DNA of 64,000 nucleotides. Origin: Rhodopseudomonas palustris (GTDB lineage Bacteria > Pseudomonadota > Alphaproteobacteria > Rhizobiales > Xanthobacteraceae). The stretch spans positions 62,001-126,000 of the forward strand of contig JACRJB010000024.1 in the NCBI GenBank assembly GCA_016215605.1. The letters run 5' to 3'. The position numbers were made by a program, and so were the translations under genes. This document shows positions 10,682-59,698 of the stretch, piece by piece. Each line of letters begins with the position of its first letter. Within the stretch, counting starts at the first letter, position 1. The notes beneath the pieces are model-generated. The model worked only from the letters and a program-made list of their open reading frames with translations. It did no database searches and had not been told where the DNA came from.

Positions 10682-10698
10682 TCACCCGGCCTCTCCCC

Positions 10699-10782
10699 GT
10701 CATTGCGAGCGAAGCGAAGCAATCCAGGGCGCAGTGCACGGGGTTTATGGATTGCTTCGTCGCTGCGCTCCTCGCAATGACG
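10699..10782. repeat. Palindromic repeat family A, copy 1
   Basis: An inverted repeat with outer arms GTCATTGCGAGCG and CGCTCCTCGCAATGAC. The inner arms read GAAGCAATCC and GGATTGCTTC around a short spacer. The same element occurs at 58349-58430. It lies between hicB and the ABC transporter operon. Confidence 0.9.
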
Positions 10783-10942
10783 CGGTGAGGTTCGGTGCCG
10801 GCAAGCCGCTGCCCAGATTTCTCGAACCTCCCGCCCCTTCCCCCTGTCGGTTGCGCCCGTCCGCCGCCGTCCTTATGTAAGCCGCCCGCGCGTCGGCGGC
10901 GTTCCGCCGCTCTCCCCCTGCGCCCAACGTTCACGAGCCCGC

Positions 10943-22605: not shown

Positions 22606-22730
22606 GTCATTCCGGGGCGGCCGCCGCGCAGCGGCGGGCGAACCCGGAATCTCGGCGGCGCGGCTGATACCGGGTGCCCTGAACGTCGGGATTCCGGGTT
22701 CGCTCGCAAACGCGAGCGCCCCGGAATGAC
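22606..22730. repeat. Palindromic repeat family C, copy with short spacer
   Basis: The left half, 22606-22655, starts GTCATTCCGGGGCGGCC and ends AACCCGGAATCTCG. The right half, to 22730, starts CGTCGGGATTCCGGG and ends CGCCCCGGAATGAC. It is preceded by GGCTGATACCGGGTGCCCTG. The halves and this inner sequence match those flanking the GIY-YIG gene at 26811-27098, so this is an empty version of that element. Confidence 0.85.
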
Positions 22731-22867
22731 GGTGGGCGGGGCGAAGCGGCCCGCCCCCCTCCGCATAGCCTCATGCCGAAAACGGCCTGTTAGCGTTGAT
22801 CCGGCACGTTACAGTCTTGCGCTCACCGACACCTCACACAGCGGCACGTCCCGGGAACCTCCTCTTC

Positions 22868-24192: not shown

Positions 24193-24296
24193 GTCATTCC
24201 GGGGCGGCCGCCGCGCAGCGGCGGACGAACCCGGAATCTCGATGATTGGGGCACGGCAGAGATTCCGGGTTCGCGCTTCGCGCGCCCCGGAATGAC
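24193..24296. repeat. Palindromic repeat family C, short copy
   Basis: The left half 24193-24240 (GTCATTCCGGGGCGGCC...CCGGAATCTC) and right half to 24296 (GATTCCGGGTTCGCG...CCGGAATGAC) have a different, shorter spacer containing GATGATTGGGGCACGGCAGA. It lies between the Bcr/CflA gene and ligA. Confidence 0.85.
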
Positions 24297-24400: not shown

Positions 24401-26718
<2,318 letters not shown>

Positions 26719-26743: not shown

Positions 26744-26793
26744 AGTCATTCCGGGGCGGCCGCCGCGCAGCGGCGGGCGAACCCGGAATCTCG
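26744..26793. repeat. Family C left half flanking the nuclease gene
   Basis: GTCATTCCGGGGCGGCC through AACCCGGAATCTCG, nearly identical to the left half at 22606-22655. The GIY-YIG start codon lies 17 bases further on. Confidence 0.9.
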
Positions 26794-26810
26794 CCGCGCG
26801 CGAGGCGTCG

Positions 26811-27098
26811 ATGGCCTATTATGTCTATCTCCTCGCCAACCGGAAACATGGGCCACTCTATGTTGGCGTCACCAACGATCTCGTGCGGCGGGTCTATGAA
26901 CATCGCAGCAAGGCCGTGCCGGGTTTTACCTCGCGATACAACATCACCAGACTGGTCTGGTTTGAGGTCCATGACGACCCGATCTCCGCGATCACCCGGG
27001 AGAAGGAGATCAAGAAATGGCGGCGCGATTGGAAGATCGCGCTGATCGAACGCGACAATCCGGGGTGGGACGATCTGTACGAGACGATCGTGCGATAG
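26811..27098 (+). CDS. GIY-YIG endonuclease domain protein
   Basis: A 95-residue single-domain GIY-YIG protein of the URI/YhbQ type. YVYLLAN (residues 4-10) and LYVGVTNDLVRRVYEHR (residues 16-32) carry the GIY/YIG motifs and the catalytic Arg, and the Glu of ITREKEIKKWRR is the metal-ligand candidate. It is bracketed by the two halves of a family C palindromic repeat, and its stop codon abuts the inner sequence of the right half. A mobile-element role is inferred; the family also includes housekeeping nucleases. Confidence 0.9.
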   Translation: MAYYVYLLANRKHGPLYVGVTNDLVRRVYEHRSKAVPGFTSRYNITRLVWFEVHDDPISAITREKEIKKWRRDWKIALIERDNPGWDDLYETIVR

Positions 27099-27167
27099 GC
27101 TGACGCCGGGTGCCCTGAACGTCGGGATTCCGGGTTCGCTCGCTGACGCGAGCGCCCCGGAATGACG
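27099..27167. repeat. Family C right half flanking the nuclease gene
   Basis: GGCTGACGCCGGGTGCCCTG from just after the nuclease stop, then GTCGGGATTCCGGGTTCGCTC...GAGCGCCCCGGAATGACGG. It is the counterpart of the right half at about 22668-22730. Confidence 0.9.
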
Positions 27168-27198
27168 GTGGTTGGAGCGGGCCACCACACCTCAACCA

Positions 27199-27246
27199 GT
27201 CATTCCGGGGCGCCCGCCGCGCAGCGGTGGGCGAACCCGGAATCTC
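27199..27246. repeat. Solitary family C half before recN stop
   Basis: GTCATTCCGGGGCGCCC through CCCGGAATCTCG. It is a single left half with no matching right half before recN ends at 27276. Confidence 0.8.
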
Positions 27247-27275: not shown

Positions 27276-28961
27276 CTACCCCGCCGCCTTGATCAGCCGA
27301 TCCGCGGCAGCCCGCGCCTCTGCGGTGATCTCCGCGCCCGCCAGCATCCTCGCGATTTCCTCGCGGCGGTGGTCCTGTTCCAGCGCGGCGACGCGGGTGG
27401 CGACGCGTTTGCCTTTGTCGAGGGCGGCTTTCGAGATCAGCAGATGCTGGTCCGCGCGGGCGGCGACCTGCGGGGCGTGGGTCACGGCCATCACCTGCAC
27501 CTTGGTGGCGAGCCGCGCCAGACGGCCGCCGATGGCGTCGGCGACGGCGCCGCCGACGCCGGTGTCGATCTCGTCGAACACCAGGGTCGGCGCCGAGCCC
27601 TTGTCCGACAGCACCACTTTCAGCGCCAGCAGGAAGCGCGACAGCTCGCCGCCGGAGGCGACCTTCATCATCGGGCCGGGCCGCGTGCCCGGATTGGTCT
27701 GCACCCAGAACTCGACGCGGTCGATGCCTTGCGGGCCCGGCGTCGCCGGATCGGCCTCGACCTGGGTCATGAACTTGGCGCGTTCGAGCTTGAGCGGCGC
27801 CAGCTCGCCGTTGACCGCCTTGTTGAGCTTGTCGGCCGCCTTGCTGCGCGACGCCGACAGCTTCGCCGCGGCGGCGGCGTAGCGGCCATCGGCTTCGCCG
27901 GCGGCTTTCTCCAGCGTGACGAGCCGTTCGGCGCCGGCGTCGATCAGCGCGACATCCGCCGCGTATTTCGCCGCCAGCGCGGCGAGCCCGTCGACCGGCG
28001 TCGAATACTTCCGCGCGGCGGCGCGCAGCGCAAACAGCCGCTCCTCGATCCGCTCCAGTTCGAGCGGGTCGAAATCGGCGGCGGCGAGCGCCGCGTTGAG
28101 ATGCTGGTCGGCCTCCTCCAGCGCATTGATCGCCGCATCGATCGCCCGCACCGCCGGCTCGATCAGCTGCGGCGCGGTGCCGGCGCGACGCTCCAGCCGG
28201 CGCACCGCGGCGGCGAGCGTCGCCACCGGCGAATGATGCCCGCCGACCGCTTCCTGCGCCTCGCGCAGATCGGCGGCGATCTTCTCGCCCTGCATCATCC
28301 CGGTGCGGCGTTCCGCCAGCGTGGTTTCCTCGCCGTCCTGCGGCGCAAGCTTCTTCAATTCGTCGGAGGCGTGGCGCAGATAGTCGGCCTCGCGGGCGGC
28401 CCGCTCCATCCCGGCGCGGTGCTCGTCGAGCGCGGCGCGGGCGGTGCGCCGGCCGTCCCACAGCGTCTCCAGCGCGGCGACGTCCTTCTCCAGCCCGGCG
28501 AAGGCGTCGAGCAGGCGGCGGTGAGTCGCGGCGTCGACCAGCGCCCGCTCGTCGTGCTGACCGTGGATCTCGACCAGCGCCGCGCCGACCGCCTTGAGGG
28601 TCTGCACGCTGACCGACTGGTCGTTGATGAAGGCGCGGGTGCGGCCGTCGGCGAGCTGGACGCGGCGCAGGATCATCTCGCCGGCGTCTTCCTCGTCACG
28701 ATCGTCGAGGCCGTTGGCGGTGAGAATCGCGAACGCCGGATGGCCCTTGGCGAGGTCGAAGGTCGCGGTGACCTGGCCGTGCTCGGCGCCGTGGCGGACC
28801 AGAGCGGCATCGCCGCGGCCGCCCAGCGCCAGCGCGAACGCATCGAGCAGAATCGATTTGCCCGCGCCGGTCTCGCCGGTGAGCACGGCGAGGCCGCGGG
28901 AGAACTCGATATCGAGCCGCTCGATCAACACGATATCGCGGATCGACAGGCGCGAAAGCAT
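27276..28961 (-). CDS. recN: DNA repair protein RecN
   Basis: A 561-residue SMC-like ATPase for double-strand break repair. Walker A (GETGAGKSILLDA) is near residue 30. A long coiled coil occupies the middle. The C-terminus has the signature GGELSRFLLALKVVL and Walker B PTLVFDEIDTGVGG. It starts 12 bases after bamD, so the two are probably cotranscribed. ATG 28961. Confidence 0.95.
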   Translation of the reverse strand: MLSRLSIRDIVLIERLDIEFSRGLAVLTGETGAGKSILLDAFALALGGRGDAALVRHGAEHGQVTATFDLAKGHPAFAILTANGLDDRDEEDAGEMILRRVQLADGRTRAFINDQSVSVQTLKAVGAALVEIHGQHDERALVDAATHRRLLDAFAGLEKDVAALETLWDGRRTARAALDEHRAGMERAAREADYLRHASDELKKLAPQDGEETTLAERRTGMMQGEKIAADLREAQEAVGGHHSPVATLAAAVRRLERRAGTAPQLIEPAVRAIDAAINALEEADQHLNAALAAADFDPLELERIEERLFALRAAARKYSTPVDGLAALAAKYAADVALIDAGAERLVTLEKAAGEADGRYAAAAAKLSASRSKAADKLNKAVNGELAPLKLERAKFMTQVEADPATPGPQGIDRVEFWVQTNPGTRPGPMMKVASGGELSRFLLALKVVLSDKGSAPTLVFDEIDTGVGGAVADAIGGRLARLATKVQVMAVTHAPQVAARADQHLLISKAALDKGKRVATRVAALEQDHRREEIARMLAGAEITAEARAAADRLIKAAG

Positions 28962-46025: not shown

Positions 46026-46143
46026 CGTCATCCCCGCGAAGGCGGGGATCCATACTCCCTGCGTTCACGATGGAAGCGCGCAGCTGAACACGTTCATACA
46101 AACGACCACAGGGGTTATGGGTCCCCGCCTTCGCGGGGACGAC
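46026..46143. repeat. Inverted palindromic repeat, family D
   Basis: GTCATCCCCGCGAAGGCGGGG at the left (46027) and GTCCCCGCCTTCGCGGGGAC at the right, with inverted CATACTCCCTGCG and CACAGGGGTTATG inside. It lies between murD and mraY. Confidence 0.85.
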
Positions 46144-55691: not shown

Positions 55692-56167
55692 TCAGTCGGC
55701 CGGACGGCCGCTCCCGCTACGGTCGAAAGGCTGCGGGGGAGGAAAGTCCGGGCTCCATCGACATACGGTGCCGGATAACGTCCGGCGGGGGCGACCCCAG
55801 GGAAAGTGCCACAGAGAACGAACCGCCCGCCTTCGCAGCTCCGCTGCTTCGGCGCGGCAAGCCCTCGGGCCTGCTGCGCCGTAACCCGCAAGGGTGAAGG
55901 CGAGTAAGGGTGAAAAGGTGCGGTAAGAGCGCACCGCGTCGCCGGCAACGGAGACGGCATGGTAAACCCCACCGGGAGCAAAACCGAATAGGGACGGCAC
56001 AGCGGACAGTTCGCTCTCGGGCGATAACTCCGCAGGGTGATGTCAAACCCGCCGTCCGGGTAGGTTGCTCGAGGCGCTGTGCAAACAGCGTCCCAGAGGA
56101 ATGGCCGTCGCGTACCACGTCCGCAAGGACGCGGTGCCCTCCAGAACCCGGCTTACAGGCCGGCTGA
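55692..56167 (+). ncRNA. rnpB: RNase P RNA, bacterial type A
   Basis: The catalytic RNA of RNase P, which cuts 5' leaders from pre-tRNAs. The conserved blocks are GAGGAAAGTCCGGGCTCC (55739-55756), ACAGAGA (55811-55817), GGTAAACCCC near 55961, AGAGGAATGG (56095-56104) and GAACCCGGCTTA near 56143. The ends TCAGTCGGCC and GGCCGGCTGA pair as helix P1, which fixes the limits. A terminator hairpin follows. Confidence 0.95.
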
Positions 56168-56179
56168 TACTTCTTCGAT

Positions 56180-58312: not shown

Positions 58313-58348
58313 GGAGCGTCCTTAGAATTCGTCCCGAAGGTCCTATCC

Positions 58349-58430
58349 GTCATTGCGAGCGAAGCGAAGCAATCCAGAGGCTGAGTGCACAGCGCTGGAT
58401 TGCTTCGTCGCTTCGCTCCTCGCAATGACG
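58349..58430. repeat. Palindromic repeat family A, copy 2
   Basis: GTCATTGCGAGCGAAGCGAA at the left and CGCTTCGCTCCTCGCAATGACG at the right in inverted order, nearly identical to 10699-10782. It sits between the two genes of the efflux operon. Confidence 0.9.
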
Positions 58431-58438
58431 AGCGGTGC

Positions 58439-59698
58439 TTACTTCCCGGTTCGCGTATCGACCCTGATGTAGACCGACATTCCGGCGCGCAGCAGCCGTT
58501 CGCGCGCCACGTCGGCGGGGACGCGGATGCGGACCGGCACGCGCTGCACGATCTTGGTGAAGTTGCCGGTGGCGTTGTCGGGCGGCAGCAGCGTGAACAC
58601 CTGCCCGGCCGCGGGCGCCAGGCTGTCCACCGTGCCCTCGATCTTGCGGCTGGAGTAAGCGTCGACCGAAATGTCGACGGTCTGGCCGGGCTTCAGGCGC
58701 GCGAGCTGCGTTTCCTTGAAATTGGCGTCGATGTAGACGCCGTCGAGCGGCACGATGTTGGCGAGGCGCTGGCCGGCGTTGATGTAGTCGCCGGTATTGA
58801 CCAGACGGTTGGAGAACACGCCGTCAACGGGCGCGCGGACATTGGTGAAGTCGAGATCGCGCTCGGCCTTGGCCAGCGCGCTCTGCAGCTCGGCGAGCTG
58901 GGCGCGCGCCTCGTTCTGCTGCGCCTTGGTGACCTCGACATTGTCGCGCGCCGCGTCGTAGGCGGCCTTGGCGGCGGCGACCGACGCGGCGCCCTGGTCG
59001 CGGCTGGCCTGCGAGGTCTCGAACACCGCCCGCGACGCGAAGCCCTTGGTGCTCAGCGCCTGCTGGCGATCGAAATCGAGCGTGGCGCGCTTGGCCGAGG
59101 CTTCGGCGGAGTCGCGTTGCGCCTGCGCCTGCTCGACCGCGCTCTGCTGCGCGACGATCTGGCGGCCGATCCGCTCGATCGTGGCCTGCTGGGTGGCGAT
59201 CTTGGCGCGGGCGGAATCGACCGCGATCCTGTAGTCGCCGTCGTCGATCCGGAACACGACGTCGCCCGCCTTCACCAGCGTGTTGTCGCCCGGCACGATC
59301 GCGGCGATGTGGCCGGCGACGCGGGCGCCGAGCGTGGTGTTGTTGGCGCGGACATAGGCGTCGTCGGTCGACACCATGAAGCGGCCGACCAGCATGTAGT
59401 CGATGCCGAAATAGGCGATCGCGGCCAGCGCCGCGAGGCCGACGCCGGCCAGCACCAGCCGCTTCCTTCCGGGCTTCTTCACCGCGGCCGCGGGACGCGC
59501 CGCCGGCGCGACCGGCTCGGACTCGCTGTCCGGCTCCGGCGGATCGGCGAGCTTCAGCGTCGACGGATCTTCCAGCAGCGACCGGACGGTTTCGGCCTGC
59601 GACGGCGCGGCGCCGTGCGGCGGCGGAGCGGACACCTTCCCGGCCGCCTCCTCCGGCTCAGCGCGAAGAACTCGGGCAGCTTGGTCGCGTCCGGACAT
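58439..59698 (-). CDS. HlyD-type efflux adaptor, EmrA-like
   Basis: A 419-residue periplasmic adaptor. One membrane helix (residues 72-95, VLAGVGLAALAAIAYFGI region) is followed by a barrel-sandwich lipoyl half (ATVAGHIAAIVPGDN-like), long coiled coils (QQATIERIGRQIVAQQSAVEQ) and the second half (NTGDYINAGQRLANIVPLDG). ATG 59698 lies behind AGGAGA, a tandem ATG at 59701 also being possible. Linked with the EmrB-type gene and TetR. Confidence 0.92.
   Translation of the reverse strand: MSGRDQAARVLRAEPEEAAGKVSAPPPHGAAPSQAETVRSLLEDPSTLKLADPPEPDSESEPVAPAARPAAAVKKPGRKRLVLAGVGLAALAAIAYFGIDYMLVGRFMVSTDDAYVRANNTTLGARVAGHIAAIVPGDNTLVKAGDVVFRIDDGDYRIAVDSARAKIATQQATIERIGRQIVAQQSAVEQAQAQRDSAEASAKRATLDFDRQQALSTKGFASRAVFETSQASRDQGAASVAAAKAAYDAARDNVEVTKAQQNEARAQLAELQSALAKAERDLDFTNVRAPVDGVFSNRLVNTGDYINAGQRLANIVPLDGVYIDANFKETQLARLKPGQTVDISVDAYSSRKIEGTVDSLAPAAGQVFTLLPPDNATGNFTKIVQRVPVRIRVPADVARERLLRAGMSVYIRVDTRTGK

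Follow-up and report, generated by a model that had tools for sequence, protein, structure and literature searches.

A small GIY-YIG nuclease gene nested between inverted palindromes in Rhodopseudomonas palustris, a candidate partner enzyme of the CGTC-type REP family

The analysed window, the whole 64,000-nucleotide stretch of Rhodopseudomonas palustris DNA (assembly GCA_016215605.1, contig JACRJB010000024.1), contains in the gap between ligA and recN a gene for a small GIY-YIG nuclease, which reads from an ATG start to a TAG stop codon and encodes 95 amino acids. The two nearest palindromes, both of one repeat family termed here family C, have an unpaired GTC head pointing outward and a tail facing the gene (Table 1). 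As claimed in the first-pass annotation of this DNA, the gene lies between halves that match those of a gene-less doublet, the "empty twin": positions 27098–27179 match 22662–22743 of the twin at 91% over 82 nt, and the left halves of the two loci are alike over the entire palindrome. The homology to the twin restarts, again as annotated, at GGCTGA, the first G of which is the final base of the TAG stop codon. Elsewhere in the window, a GTCATCCCCGCG palindrome with a GGGGACGAC end about 100 nt further (46027–46143) is probably a doublet of another family, and a bacterial RNase P class A RNA (55692–56171) was the sole Rfam match in the window at gathering cut-offs.

Table 1. Coordinates of genes, palindromes and doublets in the window.
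Feature	Position	Strand	Remarks
GIY-YIG nuclease gene, 95 aa, Slx1-like/UPF0213-like single domain	26811-27098	+	PF01541, AlphaFold, omega
ligA	24401-26587	-	
recN	27276-28961	-	name from SMC/RecN domain
5' palindrome, family C	26745-26789	+	GTC head outward, A before GTC
3' palindrome, family C, inverted	27127-27166	-	CGTC head outward
GGCTGA..GGGTGCCCTGAAC stretch, stop codon to 3' palindrome	27098-27126	+	common to twin, partly to other doublet spacers
Additional family C palindrome, downstream	27199-27243	+	
Additional family C palindrome, upstream	26567-26606	-	
Additional family C palindrome, upstream	26679-26717	-	
Gene-less doublet ("empty twin")	22606-22730		22606-22650 (+), 22691-22730 (-)
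Second family C doublet	24193-24296		24193-24237 (+), 24262-24296 (-)
GTCATTGCGAGC.. family doublet	10697-10801		type flanking the stop-carrying nuclease copy L007
Second GTCATTGCGAGC family doublet	58347-58449		

The 95-aa protein matched PF01541 in a domain search (E-value 2.3e-15), and a scan against NCBIfam gave no match above the cut-off. For the AlphaFold model (mean pLDDT 95.1) the top match among solved structures was UPF0213 protein BH0048 (1zg2, E 8.8e-5), the only one below 0.001; the Slx1 structure 6seh, the title of which refers to the processing of branched DNA, was matched with E 8.5e-3, and I-TevI stood far lower in the list of fold matches (E 1.2). Residues R27 and E64 were invariant across 14 nuclease sequences, as expected of the conserved Arg and Glu of the GIY-YIG domain, the role of which we take to be catalytic. 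Neither the domain search nor the model disclosed a second domain in the protein (reverse transcriptase, intron, intein or NUMOD). Many homing enzymes have a GIY-YIG domain, according to the accessible part of a GIY-YIG survey (PMC1564403), and the gene could be viewed as a free-standing homing endonuclease cutting gene-less sites. We hold this extremely improbable and rejected it on account of the single domain, which at 95 aa leaves no DNA-binding extension; the fold is also nearer to Slx1 than to I-TevI, and the neighbour genes differ among the copies inspected, so that no common homing site is seen.

Family C is a dispersed repeat of this genome and of the genus, with copy numbers here and below referring to pattern searches. 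The strict pattern gave 58 matches in the 5.79-Mb genome and 0 for a reversed control, which excludes a chance origin of the palindromes, and a looser pattern gave 82 in this genome (G000) and between 10 and 96 per genome in the 15 other members of the genus, its reversed control giving 0 in all 16. Out of 61 distinct palindromes, drawn from the eight nuclease loci and 30 of the 58 pattern sites of this genome, 42 faced an inverted partner tail to tail at no more than 110 nt, the spacers being approximately 20–70 nt long; about twenty doublets are accordingly present among these loci, in agreement with the mostly inverted dimers of CGTC REPs. A GTGCCCTGAA motif occurred within 110 nt after the tail in nine of the 61 palindromes, and also behind the stop codon of the nuclease gene. 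As about twenty gene-less doublets exist, the twin is an ordinary member of a set, and its earlier interpretation as a derivative that lost the gene is one reading only: a gene-less doublet with shared halves is indeed present, as one of some twenty.

The 8-bp ATTCCGGG stems of family C, with at most one mismatch, agree with the 8–9 bp stem starting with A-T pairs of CGTC REPs. In the nine family C copies of the window the base before GTC was C in three, A in five and G in one, for which reason the family is a looser fit to the CGTC heads. According to the available sections of PMC3733652, the CGTC REP loop is short (4–5 nt) and the tail CCA-like, with odd loops allowed in Bradyrhizobium CGTC-1; the inner hairpin of family C is longer and variable, and the tail reads CTCG at the window gene and CCATA in the sister clade L003. 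Over 73 distinct inner sequences from the genus loci the core of this hairpin was 94.6% paired, against 75.2% (maximum 80.6%) in a null in which halves were exchanged between copies of equal length; the sequence of the inner hairpin turns over and its pairing is preserved.

The nested arrangement recurs in many phyla. In 77 testable loci out of 80 diverse ones, which are the best 80 of 582 confirmed (L144, L170 and L188 were left out as their flanks were too short), the two flanks formed an inverted repeat (score at least 34) at 46 of the 77 loci, compared with 3 of the 760 control ORFs. Hairpins with outward GTC heads stood on both sides at 35 of these nuclease loci and 3 of the controls, and on either side at 58 and 44, respectively, the control rate being somewhat low because the control ORFs, called mechanically as the longest ORFs of at least 90 aa more than 1 kb from the nuclease, often have coding flanks. 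REPs lie in intergenic DNA, and an association by chance and shared intergenic location would draw on this and on the coding flanks of the controls; the size of the two-sided excess, as well as the own-versus-other stem test and the within-genome shuffle given below, both independent of the ORF control, leave this explanation with virtually no credence, and it was rejected on the within-genome tests.

When 250-nt flanks were inspected in 201 loci (the best 80 of 582 from many phyla and 121 further loci, 60 extra loci having been hand-picked from nuclease lists, chiefly from genomes with several nucleases), at least one outward GTC-headed hairpin was present in 138 and hairpins on both sides in 92, divided as 61 and 37 among the best 80 and 77 and 55 among the other 121. 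The heads of the 230 nearest outward hairpins were CGTC in 163 cases and TGTC in 49. The hairpins stand at near-fixed distances from the gene: the 5' hairpin ended a median of 22 nt before the start codon (75/111 within 11–28 nt, when about 9 are expected under uniform placement), and the 3' hairpin followed the stop codon at a median of 16 nt (91/119 within 3–40 nt, about 20 expected). No outward GTC-headed hairpin was found on either side in 19 of the 77 testable loci from the best 80 of 582, nor in 44 of the 121 further loci, most of these 44 showing by eye palindromes of other stem or head types, such as GTCGTCCCC..GGGGACCCA; at L113 and L120 the flanks contained no inverted repeat. Homologues sitting in unrelated sequence in most genomes, which the first-pass annotation had named as counter-evidence, were thus not what the best 80 of 582 and the further loci presented.

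Eight loci from a plasmid collection, chosen from 34 matching records partly for the species named in PMC3733652, had an inverted repeat between the flanks (score at least 30) in seven cases, the eighth being the Rhizobium tumorigenes locus (score 15), and nucleases beside such repeats were found in four taxa that this paper names. The S. meliloti locus has an outward hairpin on the 5' side and an inverted copy with one extra base on the 3' side, and in A. lipoferum a doublet stands on each side of the nuclease gene. Inverted palindromes in N. aromaticivorans (score 58) are headed GTCGCCCC, a head outside the hairpin filter, and in N. gonorrhoeae dRS3-like palindromes adjoin the gene with the nearest heads pointing inward. 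The Planktothrix locus scored just 30, without a recognised hairpin. As to gene neighbourhood, the Azospirillum lipoferum nuclease gene (L354) lies between sufB and sufC, and the relative on the Planktothrix plasmid (L356) between an MmeI-type restriction gene and the DISARM gene drmA. One relative was found in viral contigs, also between GTC-headed palindromes.

The genome under study contains eight GIY-YIG matches. L003 and L005 are each flanked by one kind of palindrome, each with a family of its own, and L004 has palindromes of two types at its two sides. At L002 a family C palindrome follows on the 3' side, and the 5' side shows a GTCCCCGC palindrome farther up; L006, without a GTC-headed hairpin, is flanked on either side, at a distance of about 130 nt, by the arms of a different type of inverted repeat. 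In L008, a distant and different GIY-YIG protein (38% identity), no flanking palindromes were seen. L007 is located between GTCATTGCGAG family doublets and contains an in-frame TAA; as this is the nuclease of the genome that has the corresponding flanking family, the GTCATTGCGAGC doublets of the window may be orphans.

Palindrome family and nuclease are matched within genomes. In 11 genomes having at least two two-sided loci (L008 and the duplicate loci L082 and L084 being left out), the stems on the 5' and 3' sides of one nuclease agreed at 8.50 of nine positions (n = 28; 25/28 at eight or more), against 6.26 of nine for different nucleases of the same genome (n = 50; 10/50 at eight or more), with a permutation p of 2e-4. 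The closest nuclease from another genus had the same flanking palindrome (score at least 34) in 100 of 120 loci, namely those of the 121 further loci that passed a length filter, when shuffling flanks within genomes (35 genomes, 104 loci) gave a mean of 34.2 and a maximum of 54 in 500 shuffles. Protein and flank similarity were correlated (Spearman 0.39; mean 0.096 and maximum 0.209 in 1000 shuffles). The tendency is for every nuclease clade to be paired with a palindrome family of its own, as would be expected for an enzyme and its substrate.

Repeat numbers also follow the presence of the nuclease, with exceptions. Exact palindromes of family F, counted in 80 genomes of the bacterial family and uncorrected for phylogeny, had a median of 22.5 in 24 genomes with an F-clade nuclease, 6 in 39 genomes with other nucleases only and 0 in 17 with none (F vs. 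none p = 1.1e-6, F vs. other p = 1.1e-3); F-clade presence was taken as at least 65% identity, and includes the stop-carrying copies of G027 and G040 and a partial match in G047. Within the genus, the median number of family C palindromes was 76 in 11 genomes with the recN-linked gene, one of them frameshifted, and 25 in four genomes without it (one-sided p = 0.02; G013 omitted because of a contig end). The exceptions are as follows: G011 lacks the recN-linked gene but has 64 family C palindromes, G001 has the gene but only 10 of them, G000 lacks an F-clade nuclease but has 45 family F palindromes, and no exact family F palindrome accompanies the F-clade nuclease of G042.

At ligA-recN, 11 of the 16 genus genomes have the gene and its palindromes (that of the window included; frameshifted in G004), or 11 of the 15 readable ones; the gene was absent in four and the site unreadable in one. 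Clean empty sites of the nuclease gene, which the first-pass annotation had called for, were not found, the four lacking genomes having unrelated intergenic DNA at ligA-recN without such a palindrome, and no movement of the gene was observed at this location in the genus. Among 10 orthologues (45 pairs), median dN was 0.077, dS 0.555 and omega 0.133 (range 0.057–0.230). This value and the residence at ligA-recN show the window gene to be resident and subject to purifying selection, which is also said of RAYTs; such selection is also compatible with a host function. The source gene at ligA-recN would be mostly inherited vertically and kept by selection.

The doublets vary at orthologous sites. 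In syntenic comparisons (280 kb at 92%; two 200-kb stretches at 93–94%), a GTC-headed hairpin was present in 3/10 and 8/40 indels, by eye as doublets or half-doublets, and few junctions were clean at 82–94% identity, one of them to the base. One doublet insertion is flanked by a 9-bp duplication, CTGAAATGA, and this site could be located in 12 of the 16 genus genomes, being empty in eight and filled in four; its two copies are identical in G006 and G005, differ by one change in G011 and have decayed in G010. A whole doublet is hence polymorphic for presence and absence at an orthologous site. Flanking duplications of at least 9 nt, the target-site signature of a MITE/IS pair, were counted four times among 60 doublets, with a mean of 0.96 and a maximum of 4 in 200 shuffles, and were not in significant excess.

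Three further observations concern the doublets. At the CTGAAATGA site (L336, L340), G011 and G010 have the same extra insert in the left palindrome, absent in G006 and G005, which suggests exchange of the locus between species. Several family F doublets of G001/G003 (L231–L270) have outer TTGGTATCAA / TTGATACCAA ends, and the moving unit may therefore exceed the two palindromes. A long doublet with CGTCATCCTGAGG ends and of another head family (L191–L198), a few kb from the nuclease locus, occurs in G010 and G008 but not in G000.

The nuclease could instead be a host-serving resolvase of hairpins or cruciforms that aids the passage of replication across its palindromes and co-evolves with the repeats without mobilising them, the doublets spreading by other means. 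The Slx1-like fold, a median omega as low as 0.13 and the residence of the gene at ligA-recN in most readable genomes are in favour of this, as is E. coli YhbQ, annotated as a nuclease of the DNA damage response, which is distantly related and has no flanking repeats; moreover, the copy-number link fits a resolvase and a mobiliser equally well and cannot by itself tell one from the other. A resolvase nevertheless offers no explanation for the position of the gene within the repeat unit, at near-fixed distances to the hairpins, in many phyla, or for the way in which doublets are gained and lost at orthologous sites where most genomes are without a Y1 transposase, and we consider it rather unlikely.

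Seven loci of Y1 transposases (PF01797), one of them below the curated cut-off, were found in six of the 16 genus genomes, and according to the accessible portion of PMC3733652 GTAG repeats occur together with CGTC repeats in Bradyrhizobium and R. palustris, so that RAYT/Y1 or other transposases might move the CGTC doublets and the nuclease be a passenger settled in REP-rich gaps. The genome of the window has 82 family C palindromes, yet no Y1 transposase at E 0.001. None of the seven Y1 loci of the genus had a GTCA[T/C]-headed hairpin within 250 nt on either side, and six had GTAG-type repeats by eye. Among transposases the search covered the Y1 class, and a passenger would not be matched to the repeat family by clade. 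We therefore assign this explanation a very small probability; in its RAYT-driven form it was rejected on these grounds.

The nuclease is strongly supported as the dedicated partner of the palindromes, in view of the nesting, its recurrence in many phyla, the co-assortment of clade and repeat family, the copy-number link and the purifying selection. It is probably the dedicated enzyme of the CGTC-type REP family in a manner similar to REP/RAYT, and would cleave the hairpins and mobilise the doublets. The unit would be an inverted pair of palindromes with tails inward and GTC heads outward, the autonomous form having the nuclease gene in the space between the two palindromes and the many non-autonomous forms, such as the twin doublet, only a short spacer. 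The nuclease would recognise its own palindrome when extruded as a hairpin or cruciform and nick it near the unpaired head, a structure-specific cut that we infer from the UPF0213 / Slx1 fold, and the freed or copied doublet would then be inserted elsewhere in trans, by analogy with what has been proposed for RAYT/REPIN. From these comparative data, nicking of the hairpin seems the best-fitting mechanism of mobilisation.

The REP/RAYT-like system with a GIY-YIG enzyme, as suggested in the first-pass annotation, is upheld by the flanking repeats of distant homologues, the match of each nuclease to its own repeat, the co-assortment, the copy numbers and the Y1 and YhbQ controls; the loss of the gene from the twin, one reading among others, and movement of the gene itself, which resides at ligA-recN in most readable genomes, are the two parts that gained no support, and the annotation as a whole is supported in part. 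The wider proposition, namely that the 95-aa GIY-YIG protein is the mobiliser of CGTC REPs throughout bacteria, a class unrelated to HUH, DDE, serine and tyrosine recombinases that would copy hairpin doublets by structure-specific nicking with a head and stem code for each clade, has in our judgement an even chance of being right.

In the sections of Di Nocera et al. (2013; PMC3733652) at hand, CGTC REPs are defined, reported from all alphaproteobacterial orders and from five phyla, including dRS3 of Neisseria and RPE-4/RPE-6 of Rickettsia, and their dedicated transposase is called apparently lacking. Br-REP1/2 of Bradyrhizobium were described by Hahn et al. (2016; PMC5082802, available in part). 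The string "GIY" does not occur in the text of either paper, nor in PMC12306157 and PMC5896051, later papers carrying the 2013 title. The GIY-YIG survey (PMC1564403) treats, in its accessible part, such proteins as prokaryotic Slx1-like and is a source also for the catalytic role of the Arg and Glu of the domain; "palindrom" gave no match in it. Among the papers listed in searches of the open-licence PMC literature, no title or abstract opening reported a link between GIY-YIG and REP, RAYT or dRS3. The CGTC REPs have been described since 2013 without an enzyme of their own, and a candidate now matches the repeat family clade by clade, by which the spread of these repeats becomes a direct question of cleavage and mobility. 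If true, two nucleases without common origin would each have become the centre of a REP life-style, and a function would be assigned to a large group of small, so far unnamed GIY-YIG proteins.

Compared with known systems, the palindromes of the window fit the CGTC REP super-family by head, stem and dimer organisation, and the outer arms of the Br-REP2 consensus, as given in the available part of PMC5082802, are those of family C; the CGTC REPs of PMC3733652 were described without a dedicated enzyme, whereas here they have a candidate nuclease partner. Penelope-like elements and GIY-YIG homing endonucleases likewise place a GIY-YIG nuclease inside a selfish element (PMC1564403, accessible part), but the protein of the window, unlike theirs, is a single domain of 95 aa. 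Slx1 and the UPF0213 proteins (YhbQ, BH0048) share with it the same minimal single-domain fold; E. coli YhbQ is 25% identical to it over 79 columns, and the E. coli gene, unlike that of the window, is without flanking repeats, having neither a flanking inverted repeat (score 16) nor a GTC-headed hairpin. REP/REPIN-RAYT systems are alike in their imperfect palindromes with a conserved unpaired head, in the inverted doublets and in the enzyme gene lying between inverted cognate repeats. RAYTs have their own repeat family for each enzyme and are mostly inherited vertically, traits in which the nuclease system of the window is similar. The two differ in the enzyme, which is here a GIY-YIG nuclease (PF01541) unrelated to the HUH/Y1 RAYTs, and in the head of the palindrome, GTC here and GTAG in theirs.
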